Source of the DNA: Rheinheimera sp.
GTDB taxonomy: Bacteria > Pseudomonadota > Gammaproteobacteria > Enterobacterales > Alteromonadaceae
Assembly: GCF_030690345.1 (NCBI RefSeq)
Contig: NZ_JAUYGV010000009.1
Coordinates: 186,001 to 250,000, forward strand
DNA: 64,000 bases
Reading direction: 5' to 3'
This document shows positions 4,274 through 20,349 of the stretch, piece by piece. Positions within the stretch are counted from its first letter, which is position 1. Each line of letters starts with the position of its first letter. The translations under genes were made by a program, and so were the position numbers. Below the pieces are notes generated by a model. It was not told the origin of the DNA. It did no database searches and saw only the letters and a program-made list of their open reading frames with translations.

Positions 4274-6490
4274 ATGTTGCGCAAGTTCCACAGCTTACCG
4301 GGCCTGCTTACTGGTTTGCTTCTGATGGTTCTCTCAGTCACGGGTGCTGTGTTGGCTTTGGCGCCGGTGCTGGAAAGAGCCTCAGCGGTCATTCCGGCTT
4401 CCGGTGAAATCAGTATCGCCGAGCTGGCTGACCGGATCGTTGCTCACTATCCCGGGACTGAGCAGATCGTGCGAGAGCCTTCTGGCAAGGTCATTGTCTA
4501 TTACAGCCGTGACGGCCAGGCCGGTGCGGATCTGGTGAATCCGGTAACAGGTGAGGGCACGCCCTACGAACCTTCCGCATTCTTTGGCTGGATCAAGGAT
4601 CTGCATCGTGCGTTTATGCTGGATGATGCCGGTAGAGCGCTGGCCGGCGTATTGGCTGTTTTGATGGTGCTTCTGTGTCTTTCGGGAATATTTTTGATAG
4701 CCCGGCGTACCGGGGGTTGGAAGAATATATTAAGACCGCTTTCCGGCTCTGGCGGGAAACGAATCCATGCCGAATTGGCCCGGTTTGCCGTGCTCGGCCT
4801 ACTGTTATCCGCACTGACCGGTAGCTATATGTCGGCACAGCGCTTTGGTTTGCTGCCGGAAGCGCCTGACACAGGGCCAGGGTTTCCGGCTGAGGTCTCG
4901 GGCGGGCAACCATCGCCTGTGGGCACCTTAAAAGCGCTAGGCAATTTCGATCTTGGCGAACTCCGGGAACTGGTGTTTCCCTATGCCGGTGATCCGCAGG
5001 ACGTCTATTCGCTGTCAACCGCCGGCGGCTCCGGATTCGTGGACCAGGCTACGGGCGAGTTGCTGCAGTTCCAGCCGCGCTCTGACAGCGGCGTATTGCA
5101 GGACTGGATTGTACGTTTGCACACCGGTGAAGGCCTATGGTGGCTTGGCCTGATTCTTGGCGCTGCGGCACTGACTGTGCCAGCTCTCTCGATAACAGGT
5201 GCAACCATCTGGTGGCAGCGTCGCCGGTCTTCAGGGCAGCTTCCTGACAACGCCGATGCCGCTCAGGCGGATACAATTATTCTGGTCGGCTCCGAAGGTA
5301 ATGCCACCTGGGGATTTGCCCGGGAACTCCATAGCAGCCTGAATAAGGCCGGTTTCCGCGTGCATTGCAGCGAGATGAATGCCCTGGCTAAGCAGTATCC
5401 GCAGGCTTCCAGGCTGTTCGTGCTGACTTCGACATACGGCGATGGTGATGCACCCGCATCGGCCCGGCAGTTTATGGCCAGGCTCAAAGAATTCCGGGCT
5501 GAGAAGAACCTGCGATACACGGTACTGGGTTTTGGTGACCGGCAGTTTCCGAACTTCTGTCAGTTTGCCTTGTCGGTGGATGCTGCGCTCGCCGGTAAAG
5601 GCGTCAGCCGTTTGCACGCCATTGAACTGATTGATCGGTGTTCTGCCTCGCAATTCAGTGAGTGGGGAAACCGGGTTGGTGAGGTTATCGGTACTCCGCT
5701 TTTCTTGAACTACTGTGCATTGCAGCCAGCAACGGTCAAACTGGAACTGGTAGAAAGGGCGGATTACGGGATTGCGGTTCAGGCGCCCACCAGTATCTTC
5801 CGGTTCAAACCGGCGGAGCAGGGCGGATGGCTAACGGCTTCTCCAAGAAGATTTAAAGCGCTGCCACCGTTCGAGGCGGGAGACCTTTTGGGGGTTATTC
5901 CCCCACACGGTCAAGCCCCGCGGTTCTACTCGCTCGCGTCCTCAGCTAGTGACGGGATTGTTGAGATATGCGTCCGCAAGCAGCCCGGCGGTCTATGCTC
6001 CGGGTACTTGCATGACCTCAAGCCGGGAGCTTGTATCGATGGTTTTATCCGCCCCAATCCAGGCTTCCGGCCAGCTACAGGTAGCCAGCCAGTTATCCTA
6101 ATCGGTGCAGGTGCCGGCATTGGTCCGTTAACCGGTTTCATCCGAAAAAATACCAGACGCAACCCTATGTATCTGTACTGGGGCGGTCGCGATTCCAGTT
6201 CGGATTTTCTCTACCAACCCGAGCTCGGGCGCTATCTTGACGATCATCGACTGAGCGCGCTGAACACTGCCTTCTCAAGAGCAGACGAGCGCACCTACGT
6301 GCAGGATAAGCTCAAACAGGATGAATTAGCCGTGCGACAGATGGTTAACACCGGTGCGCAGATACTGGTCTGTGGTGGCCGGGATATGGCGGCGGCTGTG
6401 CGGCAGGTTATAGAAGACATTCTCAAACCCTTGCACATCGATATTGAAACTCTGAGAGGCCAGGGACGTTATCTTGAAGATGTATATTGA
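4274..6490 (+). CDS. PepSY transmembrane-flavodoxin-FNR fusion reductase
   Basis: Large membrane flavoprotein of 738 residues. A PepSY-TM module (about 1-330) opens with a membrane segment in LPGLLTGLLLMVLSVTG and has three further segments. A flavodoxin-like FMN domain follows (about 335-475, with GSEGNATWGFAREL and TSTYGDGDAPAS). A sulfite-reductase/cytochrome-P450-reductase-like FAD/NADPH module ends the protein (RFYSLASS for FAD, GAGAGIGPLTGF for NADPH, terminal GRYLEDVY). It should carry electrons from cytoplasmic NADPH through FAD and FMN to the membrane part and then to a periplasmic acceptor. The physical coupling to DUF2271 suggests that protein as partner. The ribosome site is GGGAG at about 4260-4264. 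Confidence 0.85.
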   Translation: MLRKFHSLPGLLTGLLLMVLSVTGAVLALAPVLERASAVIPASGEISIAELADRIVAHYPGTEQIVREPSGKVIVYYSRDGQAGADLVNPVTGEGTPYEPSAFFGWIKDLHRAFMLDDAGRALAGVLAVLMVLLCLSGIFLIARRTGGWKNILRPLSGSGGKRIHAELARFAVLGLLLSALTGSYMSAQRFGLLPEAPDTGPGFPAEVSGGQPSPVGTLKALGNFDLGELRELVFPYAGDPQDVYSLSTAGGSGFVDQATGELLQFQPRSDSGVLQDWIVRLHTGEGLWWLGLILGAAALTVPALSITGATIWWQRRRSSGQLPDNADAAQADTIILVGSEGNATWGFARELHSSLNKAGFRVHCSEMNALAKQYPQASRLFVLTSTYGDGDAPASARQFMARLKEFRAEKNLRYTVLGFGDRQFPNFCQFALSVDAALAGKGVSRLHAIELIDRCSASQFSEWGNRVGEVIGTPLFLNYCALQPATVKLELVERADYGIAVQAPTSIFRFKPAEQGGWLTASPRRFKALPPFEAGDLLGVIPPHGQAPRFYSLASSASDGIVEICVRKQPGGLCSGYLHDLKPGACIDGFIRPNPGFRPATGSQPVILIGAGAGIGPLTGFIRKNTRRNPMYLYWGGRDSSSDFLYQPELGRYLDDHRLSALNTAFSRADERTYVQDKLKQDELAVRQMVNTGAQILVCGGRDMAAAVRQVIEDILKPLHIDIETLRGQGRYLEDVY

Positions 6491-6565
6491 CAGATAAAGT
6501 GACAAGGTCGAACTGAGCCTATAATCCCAAAGCACCAAATCGCGTCCTGAACAGGAAGCTGAAAG

Positions 6566-7318
6566 ATGCCATCCACAGAAAATGAAAGACTGCTCAGCGA
6601 GCACCAGCCTAATGCCGTTCGTGCACGGCTTGCTGGTCCCGTTAAGGCCTCGACGCTACCAGATGCTGTGCTTGGCGGCATCGATGGCTGCGTTACAACG
6701 TTTGCGGTTGTATCGGGTGCGTTCGGCGCAGGTTTCTCGCCACAGGTTGCGTTGGTACTCGGCTTTGCAAACCTGATTGCAGACGGCTTCAGCATGGCGG
6801 TAAGTAATTACGAAGCGGGCCAGGCGCAGTTGAATCAGATCAAATTTGCTGAACGCACAGAACGTGAACATATCCGTGCTGTGCCAGAAGGTGAACGTGA
6901 GGAAATTCGCCAGCTGTTTCAGGCGAAGGGATTCGACGGCGAATTGCTGGAGCAAGTAGTGGAGGCTATCAGTCGTAATCCCGATGTGTGGGTAGCAACC
7001 ATGTTGCGAGAAGAGTACGGACTCTCGGGTGCCGGACTCAGCCCACGCCGAGCCGCGTTGACTACCTTCGCCGCATTTTTGTCGGTTGGTGCTTTACCTT
7101 TACTGCCTTATGCCATCCCGGGTATGGAGAGTCAGATTCAGTTCCTGACGAGTCTTGGTTTGGCAGGCGTCGTCTTCTTGGGTATCGGAATGCTTAAAAG
7201 TATCGTCTATGGCTTACCAGCAATGCGATCAGGACTCCGGACTTTGATCATGGGTACGGCCGCAGCGGGGCTGGCGTTTGCTACTGGGCATTTTGCGCAG
7301 GGGTTATTGGGGGGTTAG
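6566..7318 (+). CDS. VIT1/CCC1-family metal transporter
   Basis: Integral membrane protein of 250 residues of the vacuolar iron transporter/CCC1 family, which moves iron or manganese. The family signature is visible in DAVLGGIDGCVTTFAVVSGA (about residues 32-51) and in GFANLIADGFSMAVSNYEA. An acidic cytoplasmic helical segment follows (about 85-150, with EREEIRQLF and REEYGL), then three C-terminal membrane segments. AGGAA at about 6553-6557 supports the ATG. It is the last gene before the transposon end and fits an iron-handling theme with the upstream reductases. The direction of transport is not determinable here. Confidence 0.88.
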   Translation: MPSTENERLLSEHQPNAVRARLAGPVKASTLPDAVLGGIDGCVTTFAVVSGAFGAGFSPQVALVLGFANLIADGFSMAVSNYEAGQAQLNQIKFAERTEREHIRAVPEGEREEIRQLFQAKGFDGELLEQVVEAISRNPDVWVATMLREEYGLSGAGLSPRRAALTTFAAFLSVGALPLLPYAIPGMESQIQFLTSLGLAGVVFLGIGMLKSIVYGLPAMRSGLRTLIMGTAAAGLAFATGHFAQGLLGG

Positions 7319-7897
7319 TTCTTCAGCGGTGAATAGACAATTTAACATAATATTCCCCTAAGAGCTGATATTCATTCGCGTACCCGCTATTGGAATTAAC
7401 GGCGGATTTCTCGCTCTGTTCGCCCAATGAGTGTAGTTGCAGAATTGAATTTTTAAAGCACAACTCATGCTGAAATGAAAATTATTTAGCAAGGGCCAGT
7501 CGTCGACTAATTACTGCGCAACTTTATGAATTGTGGAAAAAATGGTGTCGATATCATTGATGCCAAAGGCTTAGCGTACAATTTTTTCCGTTTCGTGAAC
7601 TGACCCCTATCAGCTCACATTAAACAAAAATGTTCAACAAATCTTCATCGAATAAAGCACCACTGAAGTGAGGTTGTTCGCAAGCGGCTTTGAACTGCTA
7701 ATTTACAAACAGAGCATTGCATCCCCCCAAGTTTGGATTTCAATACTGCCTTGTTCGCAGCATCTTGTTCGTTAAATAAGAACGCATCCACTCATGCTCT
7801 AAACGAATGGTGACGTTCATTTTAGTATTCCGAATATTTGACACTAATCATTTGTAAATCTATTTTTTAACTAATAATTCACTTTTAAGGTTTGGTT
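7319..7897. other. Non-coding AT-rich stretch containing a transposon terminus
   Basis: No credible gene is present in these 579 bases. The left 250 bases, up to 7569, would be the inner flank of the transposon end. The 38-bp terminal repeat occupies 7570-7607. The 290 bases to its right belong to the flanking DNA, which continues in the AT-rich style of the island. The last few bases carry the AAGG ribosome site for the small gene at 7898. Confidence 0.6.
7570..7607 (-). repeat. Tn3-family 38-bp terminal inverted repeat
   Basis: Read on the minus strand from 7607 inward, this starts GGGGTCAGTTCACGAAACGG and ends TTGTACGCTAAG at 7570, exactly 38 bases. A GGGG outer end, a central ACGGAAAA and a TAAG inner end are hallmarks of Tn3-family terminal repeats (Tn21 and relatives). 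The outer end faces right, so the transposon body lies to the left. The adjoining bases TATCA at 7608-7612 would be the right copy of a 5-bp target duplication. The left end and transposase must lie before position 1. Confidence 0.8.
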
Positions 7898-8131
7898 ATG
7901 GACAATCATCGCGTCACTGAACAACAAGCAGTGCAAATCCTTCAGGAATGGAATGGTATTGGCAGAGACTTACCATCTCTGGCCAAGCTCAATCCGTCTA
8001 ACGATAAACAGACAATACTTTTACTGCTGCCTGGATATCTCTGCAATCAATGGTATCAAGTTGGTGAAACATATAGCTGTTATGCAGAGGCATTAACCTG
8101 CTTAGGTACGCTAATTGACAAAAGCCGTTAG
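7898..8131 (+). CDS. Small protein of unknown function
   Basis: Predicted 77-residue soluble protein starting at ATG 7898, with AAGG at 7887-7890 as ribosome site; a TTG two codons earlier is less well placed. It contains two cysteines and a mid-section hydrophobic stretch TILLLLPGYLC too short and polar-flanked for a clear membrane helix. I do not recognise a family. It ends 105 bases before umuD and is not obviously part of the SOS operon because the LexA box lies between them. Confidence 0.5.
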   Translation: MDNHRVTEQQAVQILQEWNGIGRDLPSLAKLNPSNDKQTILLLLPGYLCNQWYQVGETYSCYAEALTCLGTLIDKSR

Positions 8132-8206
8132 CAAATCCAGTTGCCGAATTAAACAATCATTACACTAATCGGTATCAGAATTGCCAATTCCAGCCTCCCT
8201 GATATA

Positions 8207-8222
8207 CTGTATATCCATACAT
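8207..8222 (+). promoter_or_regulatory. LexA (SOS) box of umuDC
   Basis: CTGTATATCCATACAT matches the CTG-N10-CAG consensus in all but the final base and is strongly alternating AT in the core. It lies 13 bases upstream of the umuD ATG at 8236. The earlier in-frame ATG at 8221 falls inside the box, which argues against its use. Confidence 0.8.
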
Positions 8223-8235
8223 GCAAGAGGTGGGT

Positions 8236-8667
8236 ATGTCAGCAGTATTTATTGGTAATGCCGATTCGTGGCCGAAACAGCAAATTCCTTTCTATAGCGA
8301 CCCGGTAAAAGCGGGCTTTCCGTCACCAGCACAAGACTATGTCGAGCGCACGCTGGATTTAAACGAGCTATGTATTCGCCATCCTAACGCCACGTTTTTT
8401 GTCCGGGTTGAGGGAGATTCGATGATAGAGGCCGGTATTTATGACGGTGACGTATTGGTTGTAGACCGCTCGGTAGATGCCGATCATGGCGATATAGTGG
8501 TAGCGGCAGTGGGTAGTGAATTTACCGTGAAAGAGCTCTGCACCCGTCCTGCACTGTGTTTGTTACCCCGTAATCCGGCTTATAAACCTATACGGCCGCG
8601 CAATGGTGAAGAGCTCAATATTTTTGGTGTAGTGACGAACATTATTCGGCAAATGAAGCGCAAATGA
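8236..8667 (+). CDS. umuD: UmuD, SOS mutagenesis protein / autoprotease subunit of DNA polymerase V
   Basis: S24-family protein of 143 residues that is self-cleaved with RecA help to give UmuD', the accessory subunit of translesion polymerase V. The Ala-Gly cleavage site is in VKAGFPSPAQDY, the catalytic serine in VEGDSMIEAG and the catalytic lysine in FTVKEL. ATG 8236 is chosen because AAGAGGT lies 5-11 bases upstream; the ATG at 8221 lies inside the LexA box. Its stop overlaps the umuC start (ATGA). Confidence 0.93.
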   Translation: MSAVFIGNADSWPKQQIPFYSDPVKAGFPSPAQDYVERTLDLNELCIRHPNATFFVRVEGDSMIEAGIYDGDVLVVDRSVDADHGDIVVAAVGSEFTVKELCTRPALCLLPRNPAYKPIRPRNGEELNIFGVVTNIIRQMKRK

Positions 8668-9941
8668 CAACACCCATATTTGCGCTGGTGGATTGCAATA
8701 ACTTTTACGCCAGCTGTGAAAAGCTATTTCGGCCTGATTTAACAGATAAGCCGGTGGTGGTTCTGTCTAACAACGATGGCTGCGTGGTGGCCCGCTCCAA
8801 AGAAGCCAAAAAGCTCGGCATTAAAATGGGCGTGCCGGTGTTTCAGGTGCGCGACCTGATACAAAAACAGGGTGTGGTGGCCTTCTCGTCCAACTATGCG
8901 CTGTATGCCGATATGTCACAGCGGGTAATGAGCACACTGGAAAGCCTGGCTCCCAGAGTGGAAGTGTATTCTATCGACGAGTCTTTTCTGGATTTAACCG
9001 GCATGGCATTCAGCCAAAGCCTGACCGACTTTGGCTTGCAGGTGCGTAAGGTTGTAAGCAAGTGGACAGGCATTACCGTCTGCGTTGGTATAGCACCAAC
9101 CAAAACACTGGCAAAACTGGCTAACCATGCCGCCAAAACCTGGCATCGCACAGGTGGCGTAGTCGATTTAACCGATAAAGCGCGCCAGCGTAAGTTACTG
9201 GCCCTACTACCGGTTGATGAAGTATGGGGCATTGGTGGCAAGCTGACCAAACGCTTACAGCAACTCGGCATTACTACCGCACTGCAACTAGCCGATGCAG
9301 ACCCTGAGTATATGCGTCAGCAATTCTCGGTGGTGGTTGAGCGCACGGTAAGAGAACTTAATGGTGAGAGTTGTATCGCACTGGAAGAAATGGCTCCCAC
9401 TAAAAAGCAGATTGTTAGTAGCCGCGCCTTTGGCGAACGTATTACCGATAAACAGCCAATGCGTGAGGCAATAAGCGAATACATCAGCCGGGCTTGCAAA
9501 AAGCTGCGCCAGGAGCAGCAAACTGCAAAACATCTTACGGTATTTCTGCGCACCAGCCCGTTTAGCGACAAAGATGCGCCCTATAGCGCCGGCAAAAGCA
9601 TCGAACTTGATACGCCCAGTAGCGATACCCGAATTTTTCTTACTCACGCAATGAAGCTGCTGGATGGCTTATGGTTAAACGGTTACCGCTACGCTAAAGC
9701 CGGTGTCATGCTAGCTGATTTCTACGACCCCGGCGTATACCAGCCTGGCCTGTTTGATGAACCTATTGTTCAAAAAGAGTCAAACCAAGCGCTTATGCAA
9801 CTGATGGATACCCTAAACGCGAAACACGCTAAAACTCTGTGGTTTGCCAGCCAAGGTACCAAACAGGAATGGGGTATGAAACGTGAATTGCTGTCTCCGG
9901 CTTATACTACGGACTGGCTACAGCTCCCGGTCGTTAAATGA
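8664..9941 (+). CDS. umuC: UmuC, catalytic subunit of DNA polymerase V
   Basis: Y-family translesion polymerase of 425 residues, full family length. The catalytic palm motifs are FALVDCNNFYASCE at the N terminus and YSIDESFLDL around residues 100-110. A helix-hairpin-helix region (VDEVWGIGGKLTKRLQQLGI) and the little-finger domain follow, then a C-terminal UmuC-specific tail. It works with UmuD' and RecA at stalled replication forks. It is translationally coupled to umuD and SOS-controlled. Position in a mobile island is common for umuDC/rulAB homologues and gives inducible mutagenesis to the host. Confidence 0.95.
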   Translation: MTTPIFALVDCNNFYASCEKLFRPDLTDKPVVVLSNNDGCVVARSKEAKKLGIKMGVPVFQVRDLIQKQGVVAFSSNYALYADMSQRVMSTLESLAPRVEVYSIDESFLDLTGMAFSQSLTDFGLQVRKVVSKWTGITVCVGIAPTKTLAKLANHAAKTWHRTGGVVDLTDKARQRKLLALLPVDEVWGIGGKLTKRLQQLGITTALQLADADPEYMRQQFSVVVERTVRELNGESCIALEEMAPTKKQIVSSRAFGERITDKQPMREAISEYISRACKKLRQEQQTAKHLTVFLRTSPFSDKDAPYSAGKSIELDTPSSDTRIFLTHAMKLLDGLWLNGYRYAKAGVMLADFYDPGVYQPGLFDEPIVQKESNQALMQLMDTLNAKHAKTLWFASQGTKQEWGMKRELLSPAYTTDWLQLPVVK

Positions 9942-10083
9942 TGCTATTTAACAGCATACAATGACTCTCCACTATCGAAATCGCTCAAATCTAAGTACTC
10001 AATTAGTGCCGCCTAATACGTTTCACATACCCGCTTTTAAAAACAATACGTTGAGCTTTCGTTTATTGAGCTCGGCATGGGCG

Positions 10084-10608
10084 TCATGAGTCCAGCCTCA
10101 CATCGTTATCAATGTTGAAAACCATGTCATGACAAAATTGTATGACAGGATGAGAGTGATCATCAAACCCCAAAATATCTTGTTGTTTCAGTAGGTAACG
10201 ACACATCATGTACAGCAACCTGTTGCCGTACACAAACTGAAGCTCTTGTAGAAAGCCATTATCTTTATGATAACAAAGCAAGGCTGCCACACCGATAAAA
10301 AGATACTCAAAGCTTTTTTCTGCACATACTACCCTCGCGCTCAACTCATATTCTGTCGCTAAACTGTACCCAAACAGCAACGTTGCAGGGATGCAACCTT
10401 TATGTGATAGGACCTGGCAAATCGCTTGCTCCTCTACCGTGTAAATCGGAACAAACTGATGAGAACATTTGTTCATGTAAGGGTAAATAAAGTTGTGGTG
10501 ATGCTTTGGATGCATCTCTGCTTCAGTGATGTCATCCATTTGAGCATCTGTCAAAAAGTGACCCAACCAAAAAAGTTGTGGGTTATACGCAATGCGAAAA
10601 TTTGACAT
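10084..10608 (-). CDS. Hypothetical protein, island cargo
   Basis: Soluble protein of 174 residues without signal peptide or membrane helix, rich in His, Cys and Tyr (for example MHPKHHHNFIYPYMNKCSH). The ATG at 10608 has GGAG seven bases upstream, which supports translation. I do not recognise a family. Seven His and Cys residues within about residues 32-65 could bind a metal, but no spaced motif is convincing. It is divergent from the small regulator gene at 10740. Confidence 0.6.
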   Translation of the reverse strand: MSNFRIAYNPQLFWLGHFLTDAQMDDITEAEMHPKHHHNFIYPYMNKCSHQFVPIYTVEEQAICQVLSHKGCIPATLLFGYSLATEYELSARVVCAEKSFEYLFIGVAALLCYHKDNGFLQELQFVYGNRLLYMMCRYLLKQQDILGFDDHSHPVIQFCHDMVFNIDNDVRLDS

Positions 10609-10689
10609 AATGAGCTCCGCGAATTTCGATTTTTTTCAACACTCGCCAATAAAATTTGAACAATGGATAAACCAGATTATTGCGATTCT

Positions 10690-10717
10690 TTGTCAGCATC
10701 ATGATTCCGTGTATGAT
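10690..10717 (+). promoter_or_regulatory. Sigma-70-type promoter for the small HTH regulator
   Basis: TTGTCA (10690-10695) and TATGAT (10712-10717) are separated by 16 bases. Transcription would begin around 10724, upstream of AGGAG at 10728-10732 and the ATG at 10740. This supports the short version of the downstream gene. Confidence 0.5.
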
Positions 10718-10739
10718 GGCGAAATACAGGAGTAATGAC

Positions 10740-10973
10740 ATGATTCGCTTCCACTTGCGCCGTTGTATCGATGATTACGAATTTCGGACAGGCCAGCCGC
10801 TGACTCTTATCCAGCTCGCAGATGCAACAGGAGTACATCGTGCTACTCTGTCAAAAATGTTGCACGAGCGTGGCAGTAATCTGACGACAGATGTCATAGA
10901 CCGGCTGTGCATATTTTTCGACGTTCCAGTCCAGCAGCTGATGGAGCATGTTCCATCCGAGCAGGACCATTAA
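10740..10973 (+). CDS. Small Cro/C1-type helix-turn-helix regulator
   Basis: Protein of 77 residues made almost entirely of one XRE-type DNA-binding domain: LTLIQLADATGVHRATLSKMLHERGSN is the helix-turn-helix region (about residues 22-45), followed by DRLCIFFDVPVQQLMEHVP, the usual C-terminal helix of the fold. ATG 10740 is preferred over an upstream start at 10680 because AGGAG lies seven bases before it and a promoter overlaps the longer version. It probably represses its own or island promoters. Its 3' end overlaps the convergent gene at 10970 by four bases. Confidence 0.8.
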   Translation: MIRFHLRRCIDDYEFRTGQPLTLIQLADATGVHRATLSKMLHERGSNLTTDVIDRLCIFFDVPVQQLMEHVPSEQDH

Positions 10974-11266
10974 TCACACCAAGATCCAATACAGCGCTCC
11001 AGGTGATGTCGTAGCTCGTGAGCTATTTGCTCCGTTGAAAACGAATCCAATCGTTGTTCGCAACAAATAGCTTTCCCCATCCAGGAAACCAGCGCCTCCC
11101 GGTTATTTCTTTCATCACCTGAGCCGCAGGCCATAATCAACTGCCGCCCGCACGGATCGATATTCAATGCGATTAACAGCGACTCGACAACGTTCTGAAT
11201 ACGCCGCGAAAGTTTTTGACGTTGTTGCATGTTGATAAACATGCTCATGGTTGTAATTTCAGTCAT
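10970..11266 (-). CDS. Hypothetical small protein, convergent with HTH gene
   Basis: Protein of 98 residues, helical and rich in charged residues, with several cysteines (ACGSGDE, ICCEQ, CIGSWC). A GGAG ribosome site lies just upstream of ATG 11266. I do not recognise a family. The last four bases overlap the end of the convergent small regulator gene, so the two transcripts would share complementary 3' ends. Confidence 0.5.
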   Translation of the reverse strand: MTEITTMSMFINMQQRQKLSRRIQNVVESLLIALNIDPCGRQLIMACGSGDERNNREALVSWMGKAICCEQRLDSFSTEQIAHELRHHLERCIGSWCD

Positions 11267-11683
11267 TTGTGCGCTCCCCTCAGAGCCTTGTGCAAATGCA
11301 ATACCTTGATAAACAAGTACACCGCATCACGTGACGGTATCCCTAGCTCCTGCGAAAACCATACTATTCAAAGTGGTCGCGCCGGCATTTCGTCACAAAT
11401 GCAGATGATTGATTTGTTGTGTTGGGGGGGCTCTGGGTCTCATGAATAGCGCTCCTAGTGGTGCCATCCATGGCGTTCAATACTATTGGGTTTGAGGTCC
11501 CTTGGCGGGTCACCTCTTAATAAGAGTAGCTATAAATAGACATATGTCAATTTTAATCGACATAAATTCGCAAATTTTTAGTGCCTTGTGTCCTCTATCC
11601 CCGTTTGACGAATACAGAGCCCGACTGAGGTTTTTGTTAGAGAAGATTGTTCTGAATTCGGAAATGGTTGGAAAATTGAACGT
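11267..11683. other. Intergenic region with no credible gene
   Basis: About 417 bases between the helicase stop and the 98-residue gene's start. Short open frames exist but have poor composition and no good ribosome sites. Promoter activity for the leftward gene at 11266 would be expected here, but I could not define a convincing pair of hexamers. No repeat or terminator stands out. Confidence 0.4.
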
Positions 11684-13918
11684 TCAGGAGTCTTGGCGAT
11701 ACTGGTTCATGGAAAAACACAGCTTTTGTTGCATATCCGTATTTCGAGACTTTGAAAACTCCTTTTGCAGTGCATCGGACAACGTTCGTATGTCGCCGAT
11801 CAACGTGACTTCTTTTTGCGCGCGGGTGACGGCGGTGTAAAACATCGTGAGGTCAAGGTTGGGTGATTTATCCAATGGGATAATAACCCGGGAAAACTGT
11901 GAGCCCTGGCTTTTGTGAATAGTGATGGCATAGGCAAGCTTAAGGACGTCTATCATCTCTGCGGGTACTTCTCGTTCAATACCATCATCCCACAATATCC
12001 GACCAAAACTAGCATACTCTTCAGCCTCACCATCAGATACCATTACAAGTTCTTTGTAGGCGGTGGTGACCTGTCCGACTGAACCGTTCATCACATCCAA
12101 ATGATACAAGTTAGTGCAACACATAACTTTGTCACCGACCCGAAAATCAGTGTCGACATAGCGGTCAAAGTCCTCAACAAATATGCGCATTCTGGCACTG
12201 TTGTTATCTGCGGAACATAGCTCATTTACTGCATCTGCCATCTTGTTGGTCGGGCAGATGATTTGTGTGGTTTCTGGGGCCTCCAAGCGAAGCTGGGCAG
12301 CCAGCTTTTTAATGGGCGTAAACCCCATCGCTTCGATATGCATCACGTCTTGATGGTCTAACTTAGGCATCATTCCGTGACGAATACTGCCGGCAACACT
12401 TGGGATATTGGAATTTTCTCCCTGGCGGCGAACCTCAGTTAAAGTCACTTTCGGTATCTCGTCCAGCTCGACTAACTCATGAAACACAAGTCCAAAATCA
12501 ACAGGCGGTAGTTGACCAGTGTCTCCCAACATGATGATCCGAGTACCCTGCGGGATCACTCGGAGCAACCTATACATACTGGGCAAATCAACCATCGAGC
12601 TTTCATCAATTACGAAGGCTAGTTCCGTGTTTTCATACTTTTTGAAGTCGAAAACCCTCAGGAACCGGGCGATCGTAAATGACTCATAGCCTGTCGCCTC
12701 TGTCATTCGTTTGGCAGCCTTCCCCGCCAATGCTAACTGAATCGGGACAATGTGCATCTGCCTGAATACGTGATACAGAGCATCCAGAACAGTAGTTTTG
12801 CCGACCCCTGCGCCACCATTAATAATAAAGAAATTATGGCGGGCAGCCCTTGTGACAGCTTCATGCTGCAAGGAAGTCAACCGGAATCCTTTGGTCTGCT
12901 CATAATCACAAATGGTCTCTGAAATTTGCTCGTTGGTCATAACTAGTTGCACTGGAATGCTTACTAACTGAGCAATCCGCTCTGCAACAGCAGACTCCAT
13001 TACAAAGGCACCGTTACTTTGATAACGTCCCTCAGCTAACAACACATAATTTTCACTCGTATAACCAGCCTGCAAGGCCTGCGAAGCCAGTGCATGGCCA
13101 TCGCATGGCTTCCCACTGAAGGTTGATAGTAATTTGGTTAAAGGCTCGAAGAGTTCATTATGAGTTGCAACAGTACTACCTCTATTCAGAATATCGTAAA
13201 GAGCTTCCTCTACAGCCGCAGCCAATCGAATTGGAGAGTCCAAAGCATGCCCTAGCTTCGTGGCCAGCTTGTCACATTCACGGAATGACAACCCGAATGC
13301 CAAAAGTCTGTAAGGATCTTCCCGTAATTTTGACGCGGTATCCTTCAGATAGAAGCCTGATACCCGAAAAGATATCGAAACACCAAGCCCCAATTCCAAA
13401 TTACAGTAACGCATTGCGTCGATGTTGACGTAATTGCGCCAAGCATCCACTGCATTTTGAGCTGTATCAGGGGACAATTTCTGAACCAACGTTTTATGGT
13501 CCCCCTTGTCTAACAAATCATACAGCTCCTCGCCAAAAAACGCCCAAAGCTTCTCAGCCTTCACAGGACCAATGCCTTTGAAAAGGCTGCTTCCTCCCAA
13601 GAGTTCAACAATTAACTGACCCGCAGGACGCACAACTTCGACTGTGTCGGTAGTGACAATAAAGCGCTCAAAACCCTCTATCATAGGGATCAATAGCTTA
13701 GTGTTAGGCAGGACGTCCAGCAACATTCCCTTTTTGAATGCAGGAATTACGGATGTGCAATCAACGTCTTCAATACGAACGATGTAATGCTGCCGGGAAT
13801 TCACTTTCCGAAACGTATCAGGGTCAACTTCCACACCATTGAATACAACACCATGCCGGCTCTGGTATGCACTACGGGTAACTCGCAAAGTAACGTAACG
13901 GGTATTTAACTCTGTCAT
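11684..13918 (-). CDS. RecD2-like helicase, last gene of the recombinase operon
   Basis: Superfamily 1B DNA helicase of 744 residues. The N-terminal third resembles RecD2, including a helix-hairpin-helix segment GSSLFKGIGPVKAEKLWAFF. The motor has Walker A GGAGVGKT (about residue 365), Walker B VIDESSM, motif III LGDTGQLPPVDFG, and the C-terminal motifs ITIHKSQGSQFSRV and YTAVTRAQKEV. RecD2-type helicases unwind 5' to 3'. The start overlaps the stop of the upstream coiled-coil gene by four bases, so it is translationally coupled to the recombinase operon. A role in processing or replicating the excised element is inferred; a defence function cannot be excluded. Confidence 0.85.
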   Translation of the reverse strand: MTELNTRYVTLRVTRSAYQSRHGVVFNGVEVDPDTFRKVNSRQHYIVRIEDVDCTSVIPAFKKGMLLDVLPNTKLLIPMIEGFERFIVTTDTVEVVRPAGQLIVELLGGSSLFKGIGPVKAEKLWAFFGEELYDLLDKGDHKTLVQKLSPDTAQNAVDAWRNYVNIDAMRYCNLELGLGVSISFRVSGFYLKDTASKLREDPYRLLAFGLSFRECDKLATKLGHALDSPIRLAAAVEEALYDILNRGSTVATHNELFEPLTKLLSTFSGKPCDGHALASQALQAGYTSENYVLLAEGRYQSNGAFVMESAVAERIAQLVSIPVQLVMTNEQISETICDYEQTKGFRLTSLQHEAVTRAARHNFFIINGGAGVGKTTVLDALYHVFRQMHIVPIQLALAGKAAKRMTEATGYESFTIARFLRVFDFKKYENTELAFVIDESSMVDLPSMYRLLRVIPQGTRIIMLGDTGQLPPVDFGLVFHELVELDEIPKVTLTEVRRQGENSNIPSVAGSIRHGMMPKLDHQDVMHIEAMGFTPIKKLAAQLRLEAPETTQIICPTNKMADAVNELCSADNNSARMRIFVEDFDRYVDTDFRVGDKVMCCTNLYHLDVMNGSVGQVTTAYKELVMVSDGEAEEYASFGRILWDDGIEREVPAEMIDVLKLAYAITIHKSQGSQFSRVIIPLDKSPNLDLTMFYTAVTRAQKEVTLIGDIRTLSDALQKEFSKSRNTDMQQKLCFSMNQYRQDS

Positions 13919-14433
13919 CTTAAAAGTCGCCCAGATTGAGCCAGATGACGCTCGCGAACATTTGACCTTTCTATCTCCTGTTTGGCAGCCCTGATTTCTG
14001 CTTTTAGCCCATCAATTTCTGCGGACAACTCCGCAACTTGTGTTTGGAGATGCTTAATTTGTAAATTTTTTTCTCGGATCTCTTTATCAGTGATCGAGTA
14101 GCGAATACCTTTGGAACTATCGGAAGTATTGTTCTTTTCTCGAGTCTGATATGGAAGTTCCACAATCATCTTTTTCGCGAACAACGTTTCGGCTTTGATG
14201 AGTATATAACGCTTAATGTGCTCATTTTGATAGAGGCTGGAACGAGAGATACTCAATTCCTTTGCCAGTGCAGACAGATCGATTGCACCGCTATCAATGT
14301 AGTCCAACCAAGCCTCGTCATCTAACTGCCCTAATAGATCCGCCAATTTGGTCAGATTGGCTTTTGCAGCAGGATGCATCCTATCCAGGTTAAAACCCGA
14401 CAATTCAATTTCAACATCAAAACCGGCTGTCAT
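13915..14433 (-). CDS. HTH/coiled-coil accessory protein of the recombinase operon
   Basis: Protein of 172 residues. The middle contains a helix-turn-helix-like segment LSALAKELSISRSSLYQNEHIKRYI, and the C-terminal part (about 110-165) is a long coiled coil built on the KEIREKNLQIKHLQTQVAEL pattern. It resembles in layout the small proteins that accompany multi-recombinase elements (the TnpC/GinD type). Overlaps of four bases with both neighbouring genes show tight translational coupling. No family is recognised with certainty; a DNA-binding recombination helper is the likeliest role. Confidence 0.6.
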   Translation of the reverse strand: MTAGFDVEIELSGFNLDRMHPAAKANLTKLADLLGQLDDEAWLDYIDSGAIDLSALAKELSISRSSLYQNEHIKRYILIKAETLFAKKMIVELPYQTREKNNTSDSSKGIRYSITDKEIREKNLQIKHLQTQVAELSAEIDGLKAEIRAAKQEIERSNVRERHLAQSGRLLR

Positions 14434-14846
14434 TTTTTATTGCCTTTACGAGCAGTGGTCTTCATTGAATCCGGAAGTGGAGCGTTAAGTTGATCTACGG
14501 TGAGATTTGCATTTGTTGCGTTATATAACCAACGCACATACTTCTGATCGTATTCAGCAAGAGTCTCACTCAACCTCTTACACTCTTCTTCCTTTTTTGC
14601 AAGCTTGGCTTTCAACTCTTCAAGTTTTTGCTCAGCTGTCACGATCGTCTTTTTTGTACCATTGATACTTTGGTACGTTTCTGCGATCTGTTCTCGTGCG
14701 GACAGAGCCTGTCGAGTAAACCCCGTGGCATCCTCTAATTGTGCCCATGTCACTTTGCCATTTGTGGCTCGCGATGCCAGAAGAACAATAAGATCGCAGA
14801 TCTCCTTTTCACGTTCTGGCGTGATACGTGCTTGTTTGTCTCTCAT
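14430..14846 (-). CDS. GinD-like small HTH/coiled-coil protein
   Basis: Protein of 138 residues with an N-terminal helical domain including WAQLEDATGFTRQALSAREQI, compatible with a helix-turn-helix, then a coiled coil (TAEQKLEELKAKLAKKEEE) and a basic tail ending ARKGNKK. It sits directly after the third recombinase and overlaps both neighbours by four bases. Position, size and composition match the small fourth gene, ginD, of GInt elements, which is reported as essential for integration and excision. The assignment rests on context and architecture. Confidence 0.6.
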   Translation of the reverse strand: MRDKQARITPEREKEICDLIVLLASRATNGKVTWAQLEDATGFTRQALSAREQIAETYQSINGTKKTIVTAEQKLEELKAKLAKKEEECKRLSETLAEYDQKYVRWLYNATNANLTVDQLNAPLPDSMKTTARKGNKK

Positions 14847-16915
14847 ATCGCCCTACACCCAATAATCCCGTCAGGAAATATTTGTACTCGTTCACCCACA
14901 GCTACCGATCCGTCAGCCTCGATGGCCAGTGCAACCTCACACCCGAGTAGTAGCTCTTCATGAGACTTAAGCCAATTGTTTGAGCCGTGAAACTCTTTGG
15001 CAACAGCCTCTTTGGCGGCTGCAACATGTTGGATTTGTTGGTCGCGAATACGCACAACTTCTGCTATTTCACGCTGATTTCCTTTCACTCGGAAATACTC
15101 CGCGCAGCCTCGCAGGCACGCGTAGTGTTTACCACATGGTGAATCATTGTAATCATGCCGGCACATACCAATAGCAGTGATCAGAGTCGTGGTCAGGTCA
15201 CCTAACGTGTCTAAAGCTTCATCTCTATCCACCATCGTAAATATGATTGCAGCTTCTTTAGCCTGCTCTTTCGAAATACCCGTCGAAGCAAGGATATCAT
15301 CAGCAGCATCCATCACTAGCTTGGTTTTGTTGGTATGGTCATAGGTCTCGTTATCTCCCATATATTTGCGACCAAAATACCTAGCAACTTCAATATCTGA
15401 AACGGTGTCGCACAATTCCAACATAGTGCTCAAGAAATGGCGGAACTGATGAGAAGTTAGCCGTACTGGCTGCCCCTCGAACATCATGTTTTTCCGTTCG
15501 AAAATGCTTTGCATGCCTAACTCAGGTCGTCCGGAGAGGTAATCAGTGAATTGCGTATGAGTAATTAATGTGAAGCTCCATTCTTCTGATCGTTTTACCG
15601 AATGATGGCGCTGAAATTGTGTGACAAACAGCATGTCTTCGAGGCGTTCAGCTGCAGTCAAATCCTTAACCTGTTGCCATAAATTCGATGCAGATTGTCG
15701 CGCCAAATGGTTCGTTTTTTGTCTGAGATCAAAGGGAGCAAACGCTAATGATTGAATCCCAGTTTTCTTATGGGCAAGCTTTTCCATTGGCACATCAAGC
15801 TTGCCAAGATAGGTCCCCATATTTGCCCGACTAGACCATTGCAGCTCACGCCACACATCTGTAACAAAGACCCGTGGCTCGTTGCTCAATAACGGAAAGA
15901 AGTCGATTTTAGCTTCTGGATCTGCCATGAGTTGACGGATAACCTCCCTTACAGGAGCGAGCAAGTCCAGAGCCGTCTTGAGTCCTTTTTGCAGAATAGT
16001 GACCATCGCGTCAGCAATGACCTTGGAGCTATAACCGCCCCCTTTTTTCGCCTTGTAACGAAGTTCATGAACTACAAAAACATCATCCAATCCAGTCAGG
16101 ACGTTGCGCTCTTCTATTTCACGCTCATAAAGACAACTCGTATCTAATGTCACTATTTCATCAAAACGAAGCCCGGTCGCGAACATAATTTCGGTCATGG
16201 CCTGAAATAGTGCATCATCCCCTTGCAGTTCAGTATTCGACAACGTGGCTACAGCAATCAGGCTAAGTTTGGTTGGCAGCTTTTTGGCTCGTTCATCAAT
16301 AGATGATTGATCGATTCGTGAGTCACTGTTGGTATGGGTTTCACTACGTTTCGCAGATTTTTTAAAAACAATTTTATGCTTCGCCAGCCCATGCTGATTA
16401 ATGAACTTGCAAATAACTTCCAATTTTTGACCAGTACGATAAAAGGTGCTGTCTTGAAGCCGCTCGCGCGCGTCCTTTTCCGCTAACTTAAATTGATGTG
16501 CTGAGAGGTCCGCAATAGTTAAGCCAGATTGGCTCAGTACATTGTCCAGATAACGATAAGAATTAACATATAACTGTAAGGAACCCACATCCTTCGGTGA
16601 TTCGATTTGCACCATAGTAACGTGGCATTTCGCTACATCAGAGAGACCAGAGTGATGAAATGGCTCCATCTCAGAGCGAGGAGTTTTAACATTTTTCCCT
16701 TTATTATTATCACGATTGAAGTAGATAAACTGCTCAAATCCCGCCTTTCGAGCTTGGGTGTTGCATATCCCTTTGACGTCCCAATAAATGTGTTCCCACT
16801 CCCAATTATTTTTATTTTTAAACGGGGAATTGTTTTTACAAAAGGAAATCAGCTTTTCAAGATTGGCGAGTTGATTGTCAGTCCGCCGCGGCATCAGTTC
16901 AATCACGTTGCTCAT
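14843..16915 (-). CDS. Large tyrosine recombinase (GinC-like) with Cys-rich tail
   Basis: Tyrosine-recombinase family protein of 690 residues, much longer than phage integrases. The first catalytic arginine is in ATGLRFDEIVTLD (about residue 247). The second box reads TSHQFRHFLST, and the nucleophilic tyrosine is probably in DNETYDH. The usual His/Trp before the tyrosine is replaced in ARYFGRKYMG. Downstream, MCRHDYNDSPCGKHYACLRGC forms a four-cysteine cluster like a zinc-binding motif. It overlaps genes on both sides by four bases. It should act with the other two recombinases on the element ends. Confidence 0.8.
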   Translation of the reverse strand: MSNVIELMPRRTDNQLANLEKLISFCKNNSPFKNKNNWEWEHIYWDVKGICNTQARKAGFEQFIYFNRDNNKGKNVKTPRSEMEPFHHSGLSDVAKCHVTMVQIESPKDVGSLQLYVNSYRYLDNVLSQSGLTIADLSAHQFKLAEKDARERLQDSTFYRTGQKLEVICKFINQHGLAKHKIVFKKSAKRSETHTNSDSRIDQSSIDERAKKLPTKLSLIAVATLSNTELQGDDALFQAMTEIMFATGLRFDEIVTLDTSCLYEREIEERNVLTGLDDVFVVHELRYKAKKGGGYSSKVIADAMVTILQKGLKTALDLLAPVREVIRQLMADPEAKIDFFPLLSNEPRVFVTDVWRELQWSSRANMGTYLGKLDVPMEKLAHKKTGIQSLAFAPFDLRQKTNHLARQSASNLWQQVKDLTAAERLEDMLFVTQFQRHHSVKRSEEWSFTLITHTQFTDYLSGRPELGMQSIFERKNMMFEGQPVRLTSHQFRHFLSTMLELCDTVSDIEVARYFGRKYMGDNETYDHTNKTKLVMDAADDILASTGISKEQAKEAAIIFTMVDRDEALDTLGDLTTTLITAIGMCRHDYNDSPCGKHYACLRGCAEYFRVKGNQREIAEVVRIRDQQIQHVAAAKEAVAKEFHGSNNWLKSHEELLLGCEVALAIEADGSVAVGERVQIFPDGIIGCRAI

Positions 16916-18399
16916 ATTTCACCATTCTCCAGCATTTGTACAAAACGCGTAGCCTTCAGGAAGTCGTCGTGCTGCAATATCTCAATGGCGTGATTTTCCC
17001 CAAATCGGTTCTTTGTCTCTTCGACAAAGAGTTCCACTACGGCCTTGTGATCAGCGTCTTCGAATGCTTCAAGTGAACTACATCCATAACAGCTTAAAGG
17101 AGGGTTCAATGAACAGGGGGTAGCGCTCCCGCAACTCCCTATCAGATGAAGAGACTGGTCTTTAGCCGGTGCAAAAATATGCTGCCCTTGTTGAGACACC
17201 TGCTCTGGTGTGACTACCTTTCCTTGAAATACGTCTAGAATTTCTGCCGCTTCGGTTTTCAGAACATCATTTAACTTTCTTGCGACATGGTGAGTGTGGC
17301 GATAATACACTTCCAACTGCTGCAGATCGCTGTGGTCCATCAATTCAGCAACAACCTTTAACGGCGTACCTCGGGCAATCAGTTTTGTGCAAAAAGTCTT
17401 GCGCAAACGTCGATTTGTGACCTTAAAACCCAAATCCATAACGCGCTCAAATGCTAATCGACGAGTTTGGAACAGAGCTCTGGTTAACCTTTGATTGATT
17501 GGTCTTCCTGAATTCTTAAGTGTTACTAAAATAAACCAATCTGGAGTAATCGAATTTGAGACCATCTGTTCATATCGAGTTTTCAACTCGATGAGCAAGT
17601 TGTACAACGTTTTGGTTATCGGGCGATTTTTTTTCAGCTGGTTATTTTTGTATCCACGCTGTTTAGCACGAGGTACCGATAAAGATATTCCCCCTTTATC
17701 CGATACATGTATATCTTTGAACTGCAAACGGACGACTTGTGTGTCACGAGCGCCAAGAACCTGTCCTATTTTTAGTCCAACCATCCCTTGAAGCTCAAAT
17801 ATTGATAAAGCCTTGATATCAGTAGATTTAATTGCTTGCTTGAACAACTTTTCTTCACGTATAGTCAGGGGGCCACGGTTAGGAATGAGCATTAATACAT
17901 CTTTGCCTTTACCCTCATCAGAACCAAATTTCAAAACATCCAGATACAGATCGAAAAAGTCTTCGTCAAAGAACGGAAAATTTTCGTCTACAAACCAACC
18001 ATAAATCAAACGTAATGCAGATTTCCTACTAGACCCAATATTTGATTGCATTAACTGCCGCATCTGGTCTTCGATACATATAGTTATCTCTTCTCCAGCA
18101 ACAAGATCATCATTAAAGCGAAACCCAGCTAAAAGTTTAAAATGGTTACCGAGAGATTCGTTTGAATATCTTTTACAAGCATCAGCTATGTAAGCTTTGG
18201 CGTGTTCTCTGAGCACTGGGTGCACCAATTCAAAATTCAGCAGGATCCGCTCAGGTTGCAAATGACATTGGCTGTAGGTCAGATCTAACTTCTGCCCTGT
18301 CTGAGTAATTGGGTAAGGATCATAGGTAAACTGCTCATCAGACTGCCCAAACGAAACCGTCGTCATTAGCTCTGTATTCAGGATTACATTGTACTTCAT
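16912..18399 (-). CDS. Tyrosine recombinase (GinB-like) with altered HxxR box
   Basis: Recombinase of 495 residues. The first arginine region is GARDTQVVRLQFKDI. The second box reads NRRLRKTFCTKL, where the usual His of HxxR is Arg and the second His is Lys. The region LMDHSDLQQLEVYYRHTHH retains the later His and the nucleophilic tyrosine. The C-terminal tail has four cysteines (SCGSATPC and SCYGC). ATG 18399 is preferred to the TTG at 18405 because AGAGGT lies eight bases upstream. The Arg for His change suggests reduced or specialised activity within the three-recombinase complex. Confidence 0.8.
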   Translation of the reverse strand: MKYNVILNTELMTTVSFGQSDEQFTYDPYPITQTGQKLDLTYSQCHLQPERILLNFELVHPVLREHAKAYIADACKRYSNESLGNHFKLLAGFRFNDDLVAGEEITICIEDQMRQLMQSNIGSSRKSALRLIYGWFVDENFPFFDEDFFDLYLDVLKFGSDEGKGKDVLMLIPNRGPLTIREEKLFKQAIKSTDIKALSIFELQGMVGLKIGQVLGARDTQVVRLQFKDIHVSDKGGISLSVPRAKQRGYKNNQLKKNRPITKTLYNLLIELKTRYEQMVSNSITPDWFILVTLKNSGRPINQRLTRALFQTRRLAFERVMDLGFKVTNRRLRKTFCTKLIARGTPLKVVAELMDHSDLQQLEVYYRHTHHVARKLNDVLKTEAAEILDVFQGKVVTPEQVSQQGQHIFAPAKDQSLHLIGSCGSATPCSLNPPLSCYGCSSLEAFEDADHKAVVELFVEETKNRFGENHAIEILQHDDFLKATRFVQMLENGEI

Positions 18400-18416
18400 A
18401 TGCAATTACCTCTTTT

Positions 18417-19592
18417 TTAACAGCCTTCCAGCTCACTGTGGAATTGACTGAGCGCCTCAACGGTTTGCTCCAATGTGGCTAATTTTTCGTAATTCTCGCT
18501 TTGCCTCGATTTGGGCGACCAACCCCCAATAGAGTTTTTGATTTTTTTCTTTTGGTCATCTGAGTAACCTTTGTCTTTCATCATCCGATCAAGATTTTCA
18601 AAAAAGGTGTGCCTTAGTCGATGTGGACCAAAACGGCCAACTCCAGGAAGCTTGGCTTTGATGGTATCGAAGACTGAAGAAAGTGCTGATAGCGACAACG
18701 GCTGGTATGGAAGCTGCCCTGACAAAATGAGAAACGGCGGCTGTTTCCGTGCTGCATCAGACTGATTTCTAATTTTTTTGTACTCTTCAATCAAATTGGC
18801 CAGACTATTTGAGATAGGAATGATCCGCGCCCTAGTCTTATTATGGGGGACACTTGTTCGAGGGTCGTCGTACTTCACATTTTCCATCGTTTCTATGTAT
18901 GGCCTTTCCCCTGGTCCGAGCTTACTAGTCCGGCAATTTTCGATTGTAAGCGACAATAATTCGCCTCGACGAACACCTGTTTCATAACAGATCCGACAAA
19001 TCAATTTGTTACGCAAAGCCGTATTTCGATTCCATCCAAAGTATTTGGGATCACTCAACCCTTGATACAGCGATGCCTGTAACAACAGAGACAACCCATA
19101 AACCTGTGAGTTTTTTGCGACGTGTCTCCGTCGTTTCTGGAGCCGCTCTTTTAACTTCTCAGCTAATTTAATGATTTGAATGATCATCGGGTCACCGGTG
19201 TGACGCCGAGCATTCGCTCGGCTGACTAAGTAGTCAAAATAGGCAATAGATGCATCAATTCGCTGATTAAAATACTCAGGTTCAACTGTTCCAATAGAAA
19301 CAACACTTGATTGATCTGAAAATCTCTCTAAGTGGCGAACAAATGATGTAAACAACTCCCCCTTTGACAGACCACCGAGAACAACCTCATCTTCCAAGTC
19401 GACCCCATGTTTTTGAGCCCATCGTTCGATGTGAATGACATGTCGAGTGATATTCGCCTGTGTCGTATCCGCTTGCCCAGAAAGATCAATCAAGGTGTAG
19501 CGACAAATGCGATCGATAGGCACTCCGTTGTCATCGACAACCAAGCATCCGACTTCATTGATCCCGCCCATTCTGACTTTGCGAAGCTTCAT
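18417..19592 (-). CDS. Tyrosine recombinase (GinA-like), first gene of the recombinase operon
   Basis: Integrase-family protein of 391 residues. An N-terminal DNA-binding/SAM-like region precedes the catalytic domain with the first Arg in ETGVRRGELLSLTIE (about residue 200), the box FGPHRLRHTFFEN (about 325-337), Trp in IGGWSPKS and the nucleophile in SENYEKL. All catalytic positions look intact, so it is probably the main cleaving recombinase. It is first in a six-gene leftward operon and begins about 80 bases beyond the ssb terminator, marking this as the island end. Confidence 0.85.
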   Translation of the reverse strand: MKLRKVRMGGINEVGCLVVDDNGVPIDRICRYTLIDLSGQADTTQANITRHVIHIERWAQKHGVDLEDEVVLGGLSKGELFTSFVRHLERFSDQSSVVSIGTVEPEYFNQRIDASIAYFDYLVSRANARRHTGDPMIIQIIKLAEKLKERLQKRRRHVAKNSQVYGLSLLLQASLYQGLSDPKYFGWNRNTALRNKLICRICYETGVRRGELLSLTIENCRTSKLGPGERPYIETMENVKYDDPRTSVPHNKTRARIIPISNSLANLIEEYKKIRNQSDAARKQPPFLILSGQLPYQPLSLSALSSVFDTIKAKLPGVGRFGPHRLRHTFFENLDRMMKDKGYSDDQKKKIKNSIGGWSPKSRQSENYEKLATLEQTVEALSQFHSELEGC

Positions 19593-19624
19593 GCCACAAA
19601 CCTTTACACTTTCAACTTGGTATA

Positions 19625-19653
19625 TTTATAGCAGGTCAAAAAACAGTCAGCAA
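19625..19653 (-). promoter_or_regulatory. Promoter of the recombinase operon
   Basis: On the minus strand, TTGCTG (19653-19648) and TATAAA (19630-19625) are separated by 17 bases. The start of transcription would be around 19617, about 25 bases before the first recombinase ATG, leaving room for AAAGG as ribosome site. It lies downstream of the ssb terminator, so the operon has its own promoter. Confidence 0.5.
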
Positions 19654-19670
19654 ATAAATTTTACATAAAA

Positions 19671-19737: not shown

Positions 19738-20349
19738 CTAGAACGGGATATCGTCATCAAAGTCGATTGGCGGTTCCATTGGCGCACGTTGTTGGCTCTG
19801 GGCCGGCTGCTGATAACCACCTTGTGGCTGCGCCGGTTTTTGGTAACCGCCCTGCTGTGGTGCAGCTTGCTGGTAACCACCTTGCTGTGGTTGCTGATAC
19901 GCCGGTGCAGCTTGCTGTGCCGGTTGCTGGTAGCCGCCTTGTGGCTGAGCCGGTTTTTGATAACCGCCCTGCTGACCGCCACCCATACCACCGCCTTGTT
20001 GCTGGCCATCACCGCGGCCATCTAACATTTGCAGTTCGTTGGCGATAATTTCCGTGGTGTAACGCTCTACACCGTCTTTATCCTGCCATTTACGGGTTTT
20101 CAGCTTGCCTTCGATATAGACTTTGCTACCTTTGCGCAGGTATTCGCCGGCAATTTCGGCTAAACGCTGGTAAATCACCACACGGTGCCATTCGGTTTGT
20201 TCTTTTTTCTCGTTAGTGGCTTTGTCGGTCCAGCTCTCTGAAGTTGCTACCGTTAAATTAGCCACTGCGCCGCCTTGCGGCATATAGCGCACTTCCGGGT
20301 CAGTACCCAGGTTACCAATCAGAATAACTTTATTAATGCCACGCGCCAT
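19738..20349 (-). CDS. ssb: Single-stranded DNA-binding protein with long repetitive linker
   Basis: SSB of 203 residues, longer than the 178 of E. coli. The OB-fold domain (about 1-110) begins [22 protein letters not shown] and includes [30 protein letters not shown]. The linker (about 115-190) is Gln/Gly/Pro/Tyr-rich with repeats of GGYQ(K/Q)PAQ. The acidic tip DFDDDIPF recruits replication and repair proteins. It is the distal gene of an operon with the YajR-like transporter, 20 bases apart. The stop lies beside the island junction but the coding sequence is intact. Confidence 0.97.

Follow-up and report, generated by a model that had tools for sequence, protein, structure and literature searches.

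Genomic islands of the GInt type encode three recombinase-type proteins and one small protein in a single operon, ginABCD, at one end of the island (Bardaji et al., 2017; PMC5385486). According to that account, GinA-D are all required for excision and integration, and circular forms arise as an intermediate; the 3' end of ssb is a common target, and the islands have short imperfect direct repeats, an AT-rich far end and a large, variable cargo. Some strains yielded no empty site, and the same paper raises replicative excision as one of three possibilities. Here, we analyse a stretch of 64,000 nucleotides from Rheinheimera sp. (assembly GCF_030690345.1, contig NZ_JAUYGV010000009.1, positions 186,001 to 250,000; hereafter the window), which carries an operon of this kind on its minus strand at 11684-19592. 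It forms the recombination module of a GInt-type island inserted behind ssb, and this island has the ssb target, the short imperfect repeats and the AT-rich far end just listed. The operon differs from the described GInts in adding two translationally coupled genes, one for a second small helix-turn-helix (HTH)/coiled-coil protein (CC2) and one for a RecD2-like helicase (HEL). Comparison of related loci shows CC2-HEL to be a portable two-gene cassette, which independent multi-recombinase elements have acquired, lost and exchanged with one another.

Two other groups of elements invite comparison. The first comprises the Gamma-Mobile-Trio (GMT) islands, reportedly described by Mahata et al. in 2024. 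In annotated GMT loci gmtX is followed directly by a gene of the VPA1267 family and by one for a HEL-family AAA ATPase, so the pair is already visible there in public annotations; in one damaged GMT locus the ATPase is not annotated. The window resembles these loci in having a gene with a distant VPA1267-family match and an adjacent RecD-like helicase behind its recombinases. GMT islands reportedly contain defence genes (PMC12039261). A GMT assignment was rejected for the window because its recombinases and GinD gave no match to the GmtX, GmtY or GmtZ models up to E 1; the control locus, L049, matches all three.

The second group, the strand-biased circularizing elements (SE), likewise combines a multi-recombinase operon with an auxiliary small protein, and the copy-out-like mobility considered below is the published model for SE (PMC10214605). 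In that model copying out passes through a single-strand bridge, which has to be replicated afterwards (PMC10214605, PMC9345347). Nevertheless, SE differ in gene order, and SE and GInt are treated as separate protein clusters in these papers. The word 'helicase' is absent from the main text of the GInt paper and from the main texts of both SE papers, and literature searches in open PubMed Central gave no account of the helicase as part of GInts or as exchanged between GInts and GMT islands.

The six-gene operon

The operon consists of six open reading frames (ORFs), given here in the order of transcription.

18417..19592, minus strand: ginA-like tyrosine recombinase, 391 aa; R208, H324, R327, W358, Y368
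16912..18405, minus strand: ginB-like tyrosine recombinase, 497 aa; R220, R335, H358, Y367; C-terminal Cys3-His cluster
14843..16915, minus strand: ginC-like recombinase, 690 aa; R250, K291, H489, R492, R516, Y525; C-terminal Cys4 cluster
14430..14846, minus strand: ginD-like small protein, 138 aa
13915..14433, minus strand: CC2, second small HTH/coiled-coil gene, 172 aa; distant VPA1267-family match; GinD-like profile
11684..13918, minus strand: HEL, RecD2-like SF1B helicase, 744 aa; ATPase motifs intact

An earlier note on this DNA had described these genes as one leftward operon with four-base overlaps everywhere except between the first two, and both gene order and couplings were confirmed. 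ATGA overlaps (4 bases) join ginB to ginC, ginC to ginD, ginD to CC2 and CC2 to HEL, whereas ginA and ginB are separated by 17 bp up to the ginB ATG, or by 11 bp if an upstream TTG is taken as the start. The layout is not a chance arrangement, since other genomes have it too, with GinC identity ranging from 67% to as little as 14%. A promoter scan returned six hits against a mean of 15.1 expected by chance, that is, fewer than chance.

GinA and GinB match PF00589 above the cut-off; GinC scores below it (19.9 versus 27.1 bits) and is a predicted, divergent tyrosine recombinase. The alignments show that the putative active-site residues of tyrosine recombinases are retained in all three proteins: R208, R327 and Y368 of GinA in 15/15 aligned rows (H324 in 14/15), R220, R335 and Y367 of GinB in 16/16 (H358 in 11/16), and R250, K291, R492 and Y525 of GinC in all 14 aligned rows of the six-gene type (H489 in 13/14). 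GinD is a small protein with a coiled coil. The suggestion of the same note that the first four genes match ginABCD also held, as the GInt layout is followed and the island has GInt features. By the structural features tested, this four-gene part is a GInt, with the exception of the first GinC arginine, which is kept here (R250) but is reported as missing in the GInt description (PMC5385486). In GInts the cargo begins just before or just after the ginD stop codon; here CC2 and HEL follow ginD, which agrees only if the pair is counted as cargo.

Distribution of the CC2-HEL pair

The surveys scored a limited number of candidates per genome (at most 2 for GinC, and at most 9 or 10 for NF040697, the VPA1267-family model, and for the class- and phylum-level samples), and locus counts are therefore lower bounds. 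Among 394 genomes of the window's order, the NF040697 search located at least 31 places in 28 genomes. We took in 23 of the 24 strong places (E up to 1.3e-6, window included), leaving out one 37-residue fragment and four weak places, and HEL lies directly behind CC2 in 23/23, although it is fragmented in L048 and L059 and only partly present in L063. Three weak places were also examined; L071 has HEL behind a small ORF, and L070 and L072 are without it. The check proposed in the earlier note, a search for the helicase behind gin-like trios and for its co-occurrence with the second coiled-coil protein, showed the two genes together in the loci examined, and the alternative that both genes are confined to this strain fails because the pair recurs widely.

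Identifiable recombinases lie upstream in 21 of the 23 strong places: gin trios in 14, GMT genes in two (L049, L053), a second two-recombinase set in three (L054, L058, L060) and other recombinases in two (L067, L068). The upstream ORFs of L048 are unclassified and none was detected in L063, on a 10.6-kb contig; these two and the weak L071, on an 8.4-kb contig, are the places without a recognized adjacent recombinase. Across the examined loci CC2-HEL keeps the same slot and orientation, mostly with overlapping start and stop codons. A further recombinase set is represented by L067, where a recombinase gene precedes the pair, and by L212, where a relative of that gene lies behind HEL.

A GinC profile search of the same 394 genomes gave matches in at least 37 genomes, corresponding to at least 41 loci (L117 and L118 counted as one locus on two contigs). 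CC2-HEL is present in 15 and both genes are missing from 23; two loci cut by a contig end are undecidable (L119, L124) and one is a fragment (L130). In the 38 judgeable loci the two genes are either both present or both missing, never one alone. The count with the pair includes L059, where the pair is broken, and L125, which was assigned by position and overlaps, its gene in the CC2 slot being recognized by no model. Among the 23 without it, GinD was not recognized in L122, L127, L128 and L129; a small gene behind ginC in L126, with a weak match to the CC2 model, occupies the ginD slot; ginA is missing from L108, where the contig ends; and L112 extends only 2.0 kb downstream. In all 16 of these 23 loci that were searched by tblastn (E up to 1e-4), no remnants of the pair were found behind ginC.

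A fixed six-gene machine is ruled out by these 23 of 38 loci and by the lack of remnants in 16/16. The extended recombination machine proposed in the earlier note is not supported with the helicase as a fixed part; the pair does recur, and its two genes keep company.

In a phylum-level sample, CC2 occurs in at least 11 of 398 genomes, the window genome included. Three loci outside the class (L213, L214, L215) have ginA-B-C-D, CC2 and HEL in order, two of them at ssb, with L214 and L215 being less compact. A class-level sample gave at least 1 of 369 genomes, the window's own, and a single-protein scan of genome contigs gave two loci. Named six-gene cases are Idiomarina aquatica (L046), an intact copy in Paraburkholderia caribensis MBA4 (L010) and a broken copy at ssb in Aeromonas caviae KAM479 (L009); the record of the last, NZ_AP026896.1, is a 4.9-Mb A. 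caviae sequence filed as a plasmid. A search of an Escherichia coli collection matched 22 of 5426 genomes, many of the matches being 159-base remnants, and the sole place covering at least 80% of the query was the query's own source plasmid.

On plasmids, the CC2 of L064 had no match and that of the window one, and a CC2-family gene is carried by 47 plasmid records, 23 of which are typed as conjugative. Predicted resistance genes (qnrS-like, L011:12788-13453; dfrA-like, L218:13118-13591) adjoin GMT-type CC2-HEL loci. The CC2 of L051 had no match in 50,697 phage records, and none of six pattern matches to the window CC2 in viral contigs was confirmed; a phage origin was rejected on these grounds.

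Exchange between recombinase platforms

Cross-platform DNA comparison of ten loci on four platforms gave one common block in 33/33 pairs. The start of this block varies from 9 bases ahead of the CC2 start to 2 bases past it, except in L055, where it lies 41-47 bases after a CC2 start whose reading frame begins 45 bases further upstream. The far end of the block falls in a range from 169 bases ahead of the HEL stop to 41 bases past it. Outside the block there are four further short matches, none of them at an equal distance in both loci. Between L052 (a gin trio) and L049 (GMT), HEL is 93% and CC2 88% identical, with no BLAST match between L052 GinC and L049 GmtZ. Overall, HEL is 71-93% identical behind sets whose proteins in the GinC/GmtZ slot, the only slot that the recombinase comparison covers, have no BLAST match or, between two trio types, are about 20% identical over about 230 aa.

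The GinC tree comprises 41 rows, including five six-gene rows from outside the sample and leaving out L118 (short) and L121 (a duplicate of L120). Presence of the pair requires nine changes on it, eight of which are forced by starred branches, and since shuffled labels require 13.9 on average, presence is partly clustered. The near-sisters L051 and L103 are with and without the pair, respectively, and no remnants of it were found in L103. In the HEL tree (32 rows), helicases from gin trios, GMT loci and second two-recombinase sets are mixed within starred clades, with seven changes among the three. For both trees the program warned of long branches that meet. The dN/dS of HEL between L052 and L049 is about 0.1. 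Taken together, the mixing in the tree, the shared blocks and this ratio indicate that CC2-HEL is selected as a unit, under purifying selection, and that its partners are replaceable.

The CC2 and HEL proteins

CC2 matches NF040697 with E 5e-10, under the cut-off (39.7 versus 90 bits). Its structure model has HTH-like helices and a coiled coil at low confidence (mean pLDDT 64). The CC2 profile matches that of GinD (hhalign probability 96%, E 4.5e-9), which suggests that CC2 may be a GinD-like adaptor for the helicase.

HEL matches the RecD2 model TIGR01448 with E 8e-117 and 391 bits, below the curated cut-off of 500 bits, and also matches HHH_RecD2; its domains and motifs are RecD2-like. Positions K374, D438/E439/S441/M442 and Q469/L470/P472, as well as HK-QGSQ at 668-674 (670 excepted), are invariant in 24 aligned proteins; K374 belongs to the Walker A motif. 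The HEL family profile aligns over 547 positions with the structure PDB 3e1s (E 7e-79), the RecD2 of Deinococcus radiodurans. In the literature RecD2 is presented as a translocase that works at forks (PMC12143592). HEL differs from it in falling below the TIGR01448 cut-off and in being borne by an element: when the host genome was searched with the RecD2 model HEL scored best, followed by a separate RecD-like gene on C10. The HEL core is also similar to TraA relaxase-helicases, although domain and family model searches found no relaxase in HEL, and HEL has further matches among the RecD-like proteins in PADLOC systems and candidates, namely typeIV_RecD (E 5e-61), PDC-S68 and RecD_like.

The island and its borders

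The features around the operon are the following.

19738..20349, minus strand: ssb, the target gene; reading frame intact
19739..19746, minus strand: attL core, CCGTTCTA, overlapping the last ssb codons
19593..19738, minus strand: ssb-side island end; three TGTAAAG motifs and a terminator-like hairpin (19678-19701) behind ssb
1..11683: cargo in the window; redox and transport genes, umuDC (8221-9941), small ORFs (10084-11266)
G000:C4:155855-155862, about 30 kb outside the window: attR, the second copy of CCGTTCTA

The island spans C4:155863-205738 (49,876 bp) and is inserted at the 3' end of ssb. These limits follow from the empty sites of two genomes of the same genus (G027, G007), in which ssb is joined, directly or after 33 bases, to sequence homologous to C4:155862 and beyond. 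The window holds only the last 19.7 kb, with about 30 kb more beyond its left edge. Because the far end lies outside the window, a search for att repeats within the window alone gave nothing useful, and adjacent genome stretches were used to locate it. The direct repeats at the ends have an exact 8-bp core, CCGTTCTA, and agree at 9/10 positions with neighbouring bases. The far end is AT-rich (36.7% G+C over the last 300 bp versus 49.1% island-wide), and the terminator-like hairpin behind ssb falls inside the island.

Of 14 ssb regions compared within the genus, two are empty (G027, G007), one has this island (G004), three have the far flank 11-14 kb from ssb (G024, G014, G009) and eight could not be classified within the stretch compared. 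Identity between the G004 island and that of the window is 99.99% (7.0 kb), 99.2% (14.3 kb) and 99.95% (12.1 kb), against only 73-83% in the host flanks, which indicates that the island was recently transferred horizontally. In G004, contig ends interrupt both ginA and HEL, and the overlaps of 11 and 13 bases there look like the work of insertion sequences. A different gin operon (L115) lies at ssb in another genome of the genus, G015; owing to this operon and to the displaced flanks of G024, G014 and G009, the 3' end of ssb appears to be a hotspot for insertion.

The motif TGTAAAG occurs ten times in the island, five of them within the terminal 490 bp (three on the ssb side and two at the far end). 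It is also found between ssb and ginA in L046 (2), L009 (4), L066 (4), L115 (3) and L116 (1), and is missing from this interval in L064, L065, L055, L106, L109 and L105. Since L115 has the motif without CC2-HEL, it is probably a binding mark for the recombinases or GinD.

The 4.4-kb stretch around the umuDC-type pair matches 25 of 31 genomes of the genus, mostly over umuDC. Outside the window, the island contains matches to the defence genes GajA/GajB of Gabija, LmuA/B/C of Lamassu and SngB/C of Shango (L206:10164-18232, L205:1782-5287), as well as a Tn3-family transposase (L205:7203-10172).

Possible role of the pair

The reading that we favour, and to which we give roughly an even chance, is that CC2-HEL is an accessory helicase unit for copy-out-like mobility of the GInt-type island. 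GinA-C with GinD would cut and join the att sites, and CC2, as a relative of GinD, would serve as an adaptor bringing HEL to the recombinase-DNA complex. HEL could then unwind DNA at the single-strand-exchange intermediate, which would let the island be copied out, as in the SE model, rather than only cut out. Copying out would give more circles and leave the donor copy in place, which would account for the pair being helpful but dispensable. In favour of this reading we count the constant slot and pairing of CC2 and HEL behind recombinases, the shared DNA blocks, both trees, the low dN/dS of HEL, the match between the CC2 and GinD profiles, and the published accounts of GInt excision, SE copy-out and RecD2 at forks. 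Several observations weigh against this proposal: 23 of 38 judgeable gin loci do without the pair, and in the published minimal GInt an operon of four genes is enough (PMC5385486); the structure model of CC2 is weak, with its mean pLDDT of 64, and the coiled coil may contribute to the profile match with GinD; and the other cargo includes defence systems, which makes a defence role possible. The broader version, in which CC2-HEL is a general-purpose replication cassette that turns cut-and-join recombination into copy-out mobility, is put forward more tentatively, and we would sooner doubt it than rely on it.

The main rival, which we consider unlikely, is that CC2-HEL is itself cargo, a defence or competition module that occupies the first cargo slot and rides on the recombinases without serving them. 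The Gabija, Lamassu and Shango genes, the HEL matches to RecD-like proteins of PADLOC systems and the gin loci without the pair agree with such a module. Its constant slot and orientation, its mostly overlapping start and stop codons and the apparent homology of CC2 with GinD do not, and pairs without a recognized adjacent recombinase are few (L048, L063 and the weak L071). Alternatively, HEL might maintain the excised circle through transient replication or stability, as a plasmid accessory helicase does, and take no part in the excision step. A RecD2/TraA-type core with no relaxase match and the circle as a known GInt intermediate (PMC5385486) would suit this role, and the repeated TGTAAAG at the island ends could be iterons; however, L115, a related element without the pair, has the motif as well, and no family match of a neighbouring gene names a replication initiator, although no dedicated search for one was made. 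We regard this explanation as improbable. A TraA-like role of HEL in assisting transfer by conjugative machinery is very improbable indeed, because the resemblance of its core to TraA relaxase-helicases and the conjugative typing of 23 of 47 plasmid records are offset by the relaxase domain not found in HEL and by the description of GInts and SEs as putatively non-mobilizable (PMC10214605).

Implications for multi-recombinase elements

At stake is how multi-recombinase elements (GInt, SE, GMT and Tn554-like) move without always leaving an empty site. Unrelated recombinase sets have exchanged CC2-HEL as a block that runs almost exactly from its first start codon to its last stop codon, which indicates that the elements have some step of the life cycle in common. 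If the broader reading, a general-purpose replication cassette, is true, gin trios, GMT islands and two or more further sets would have independently acquired the same pair as a shared replicative module. The loci themselves offer a handle: L051 and L103 share a recombinase type, but only L051 has the pair, and in L052, L049 and L219 the same pair stands on different recombinases. With defence genes on the island and related cassettes on plasmids with predicted resistance genes, the mobility of such elements matters for the spread of genes.

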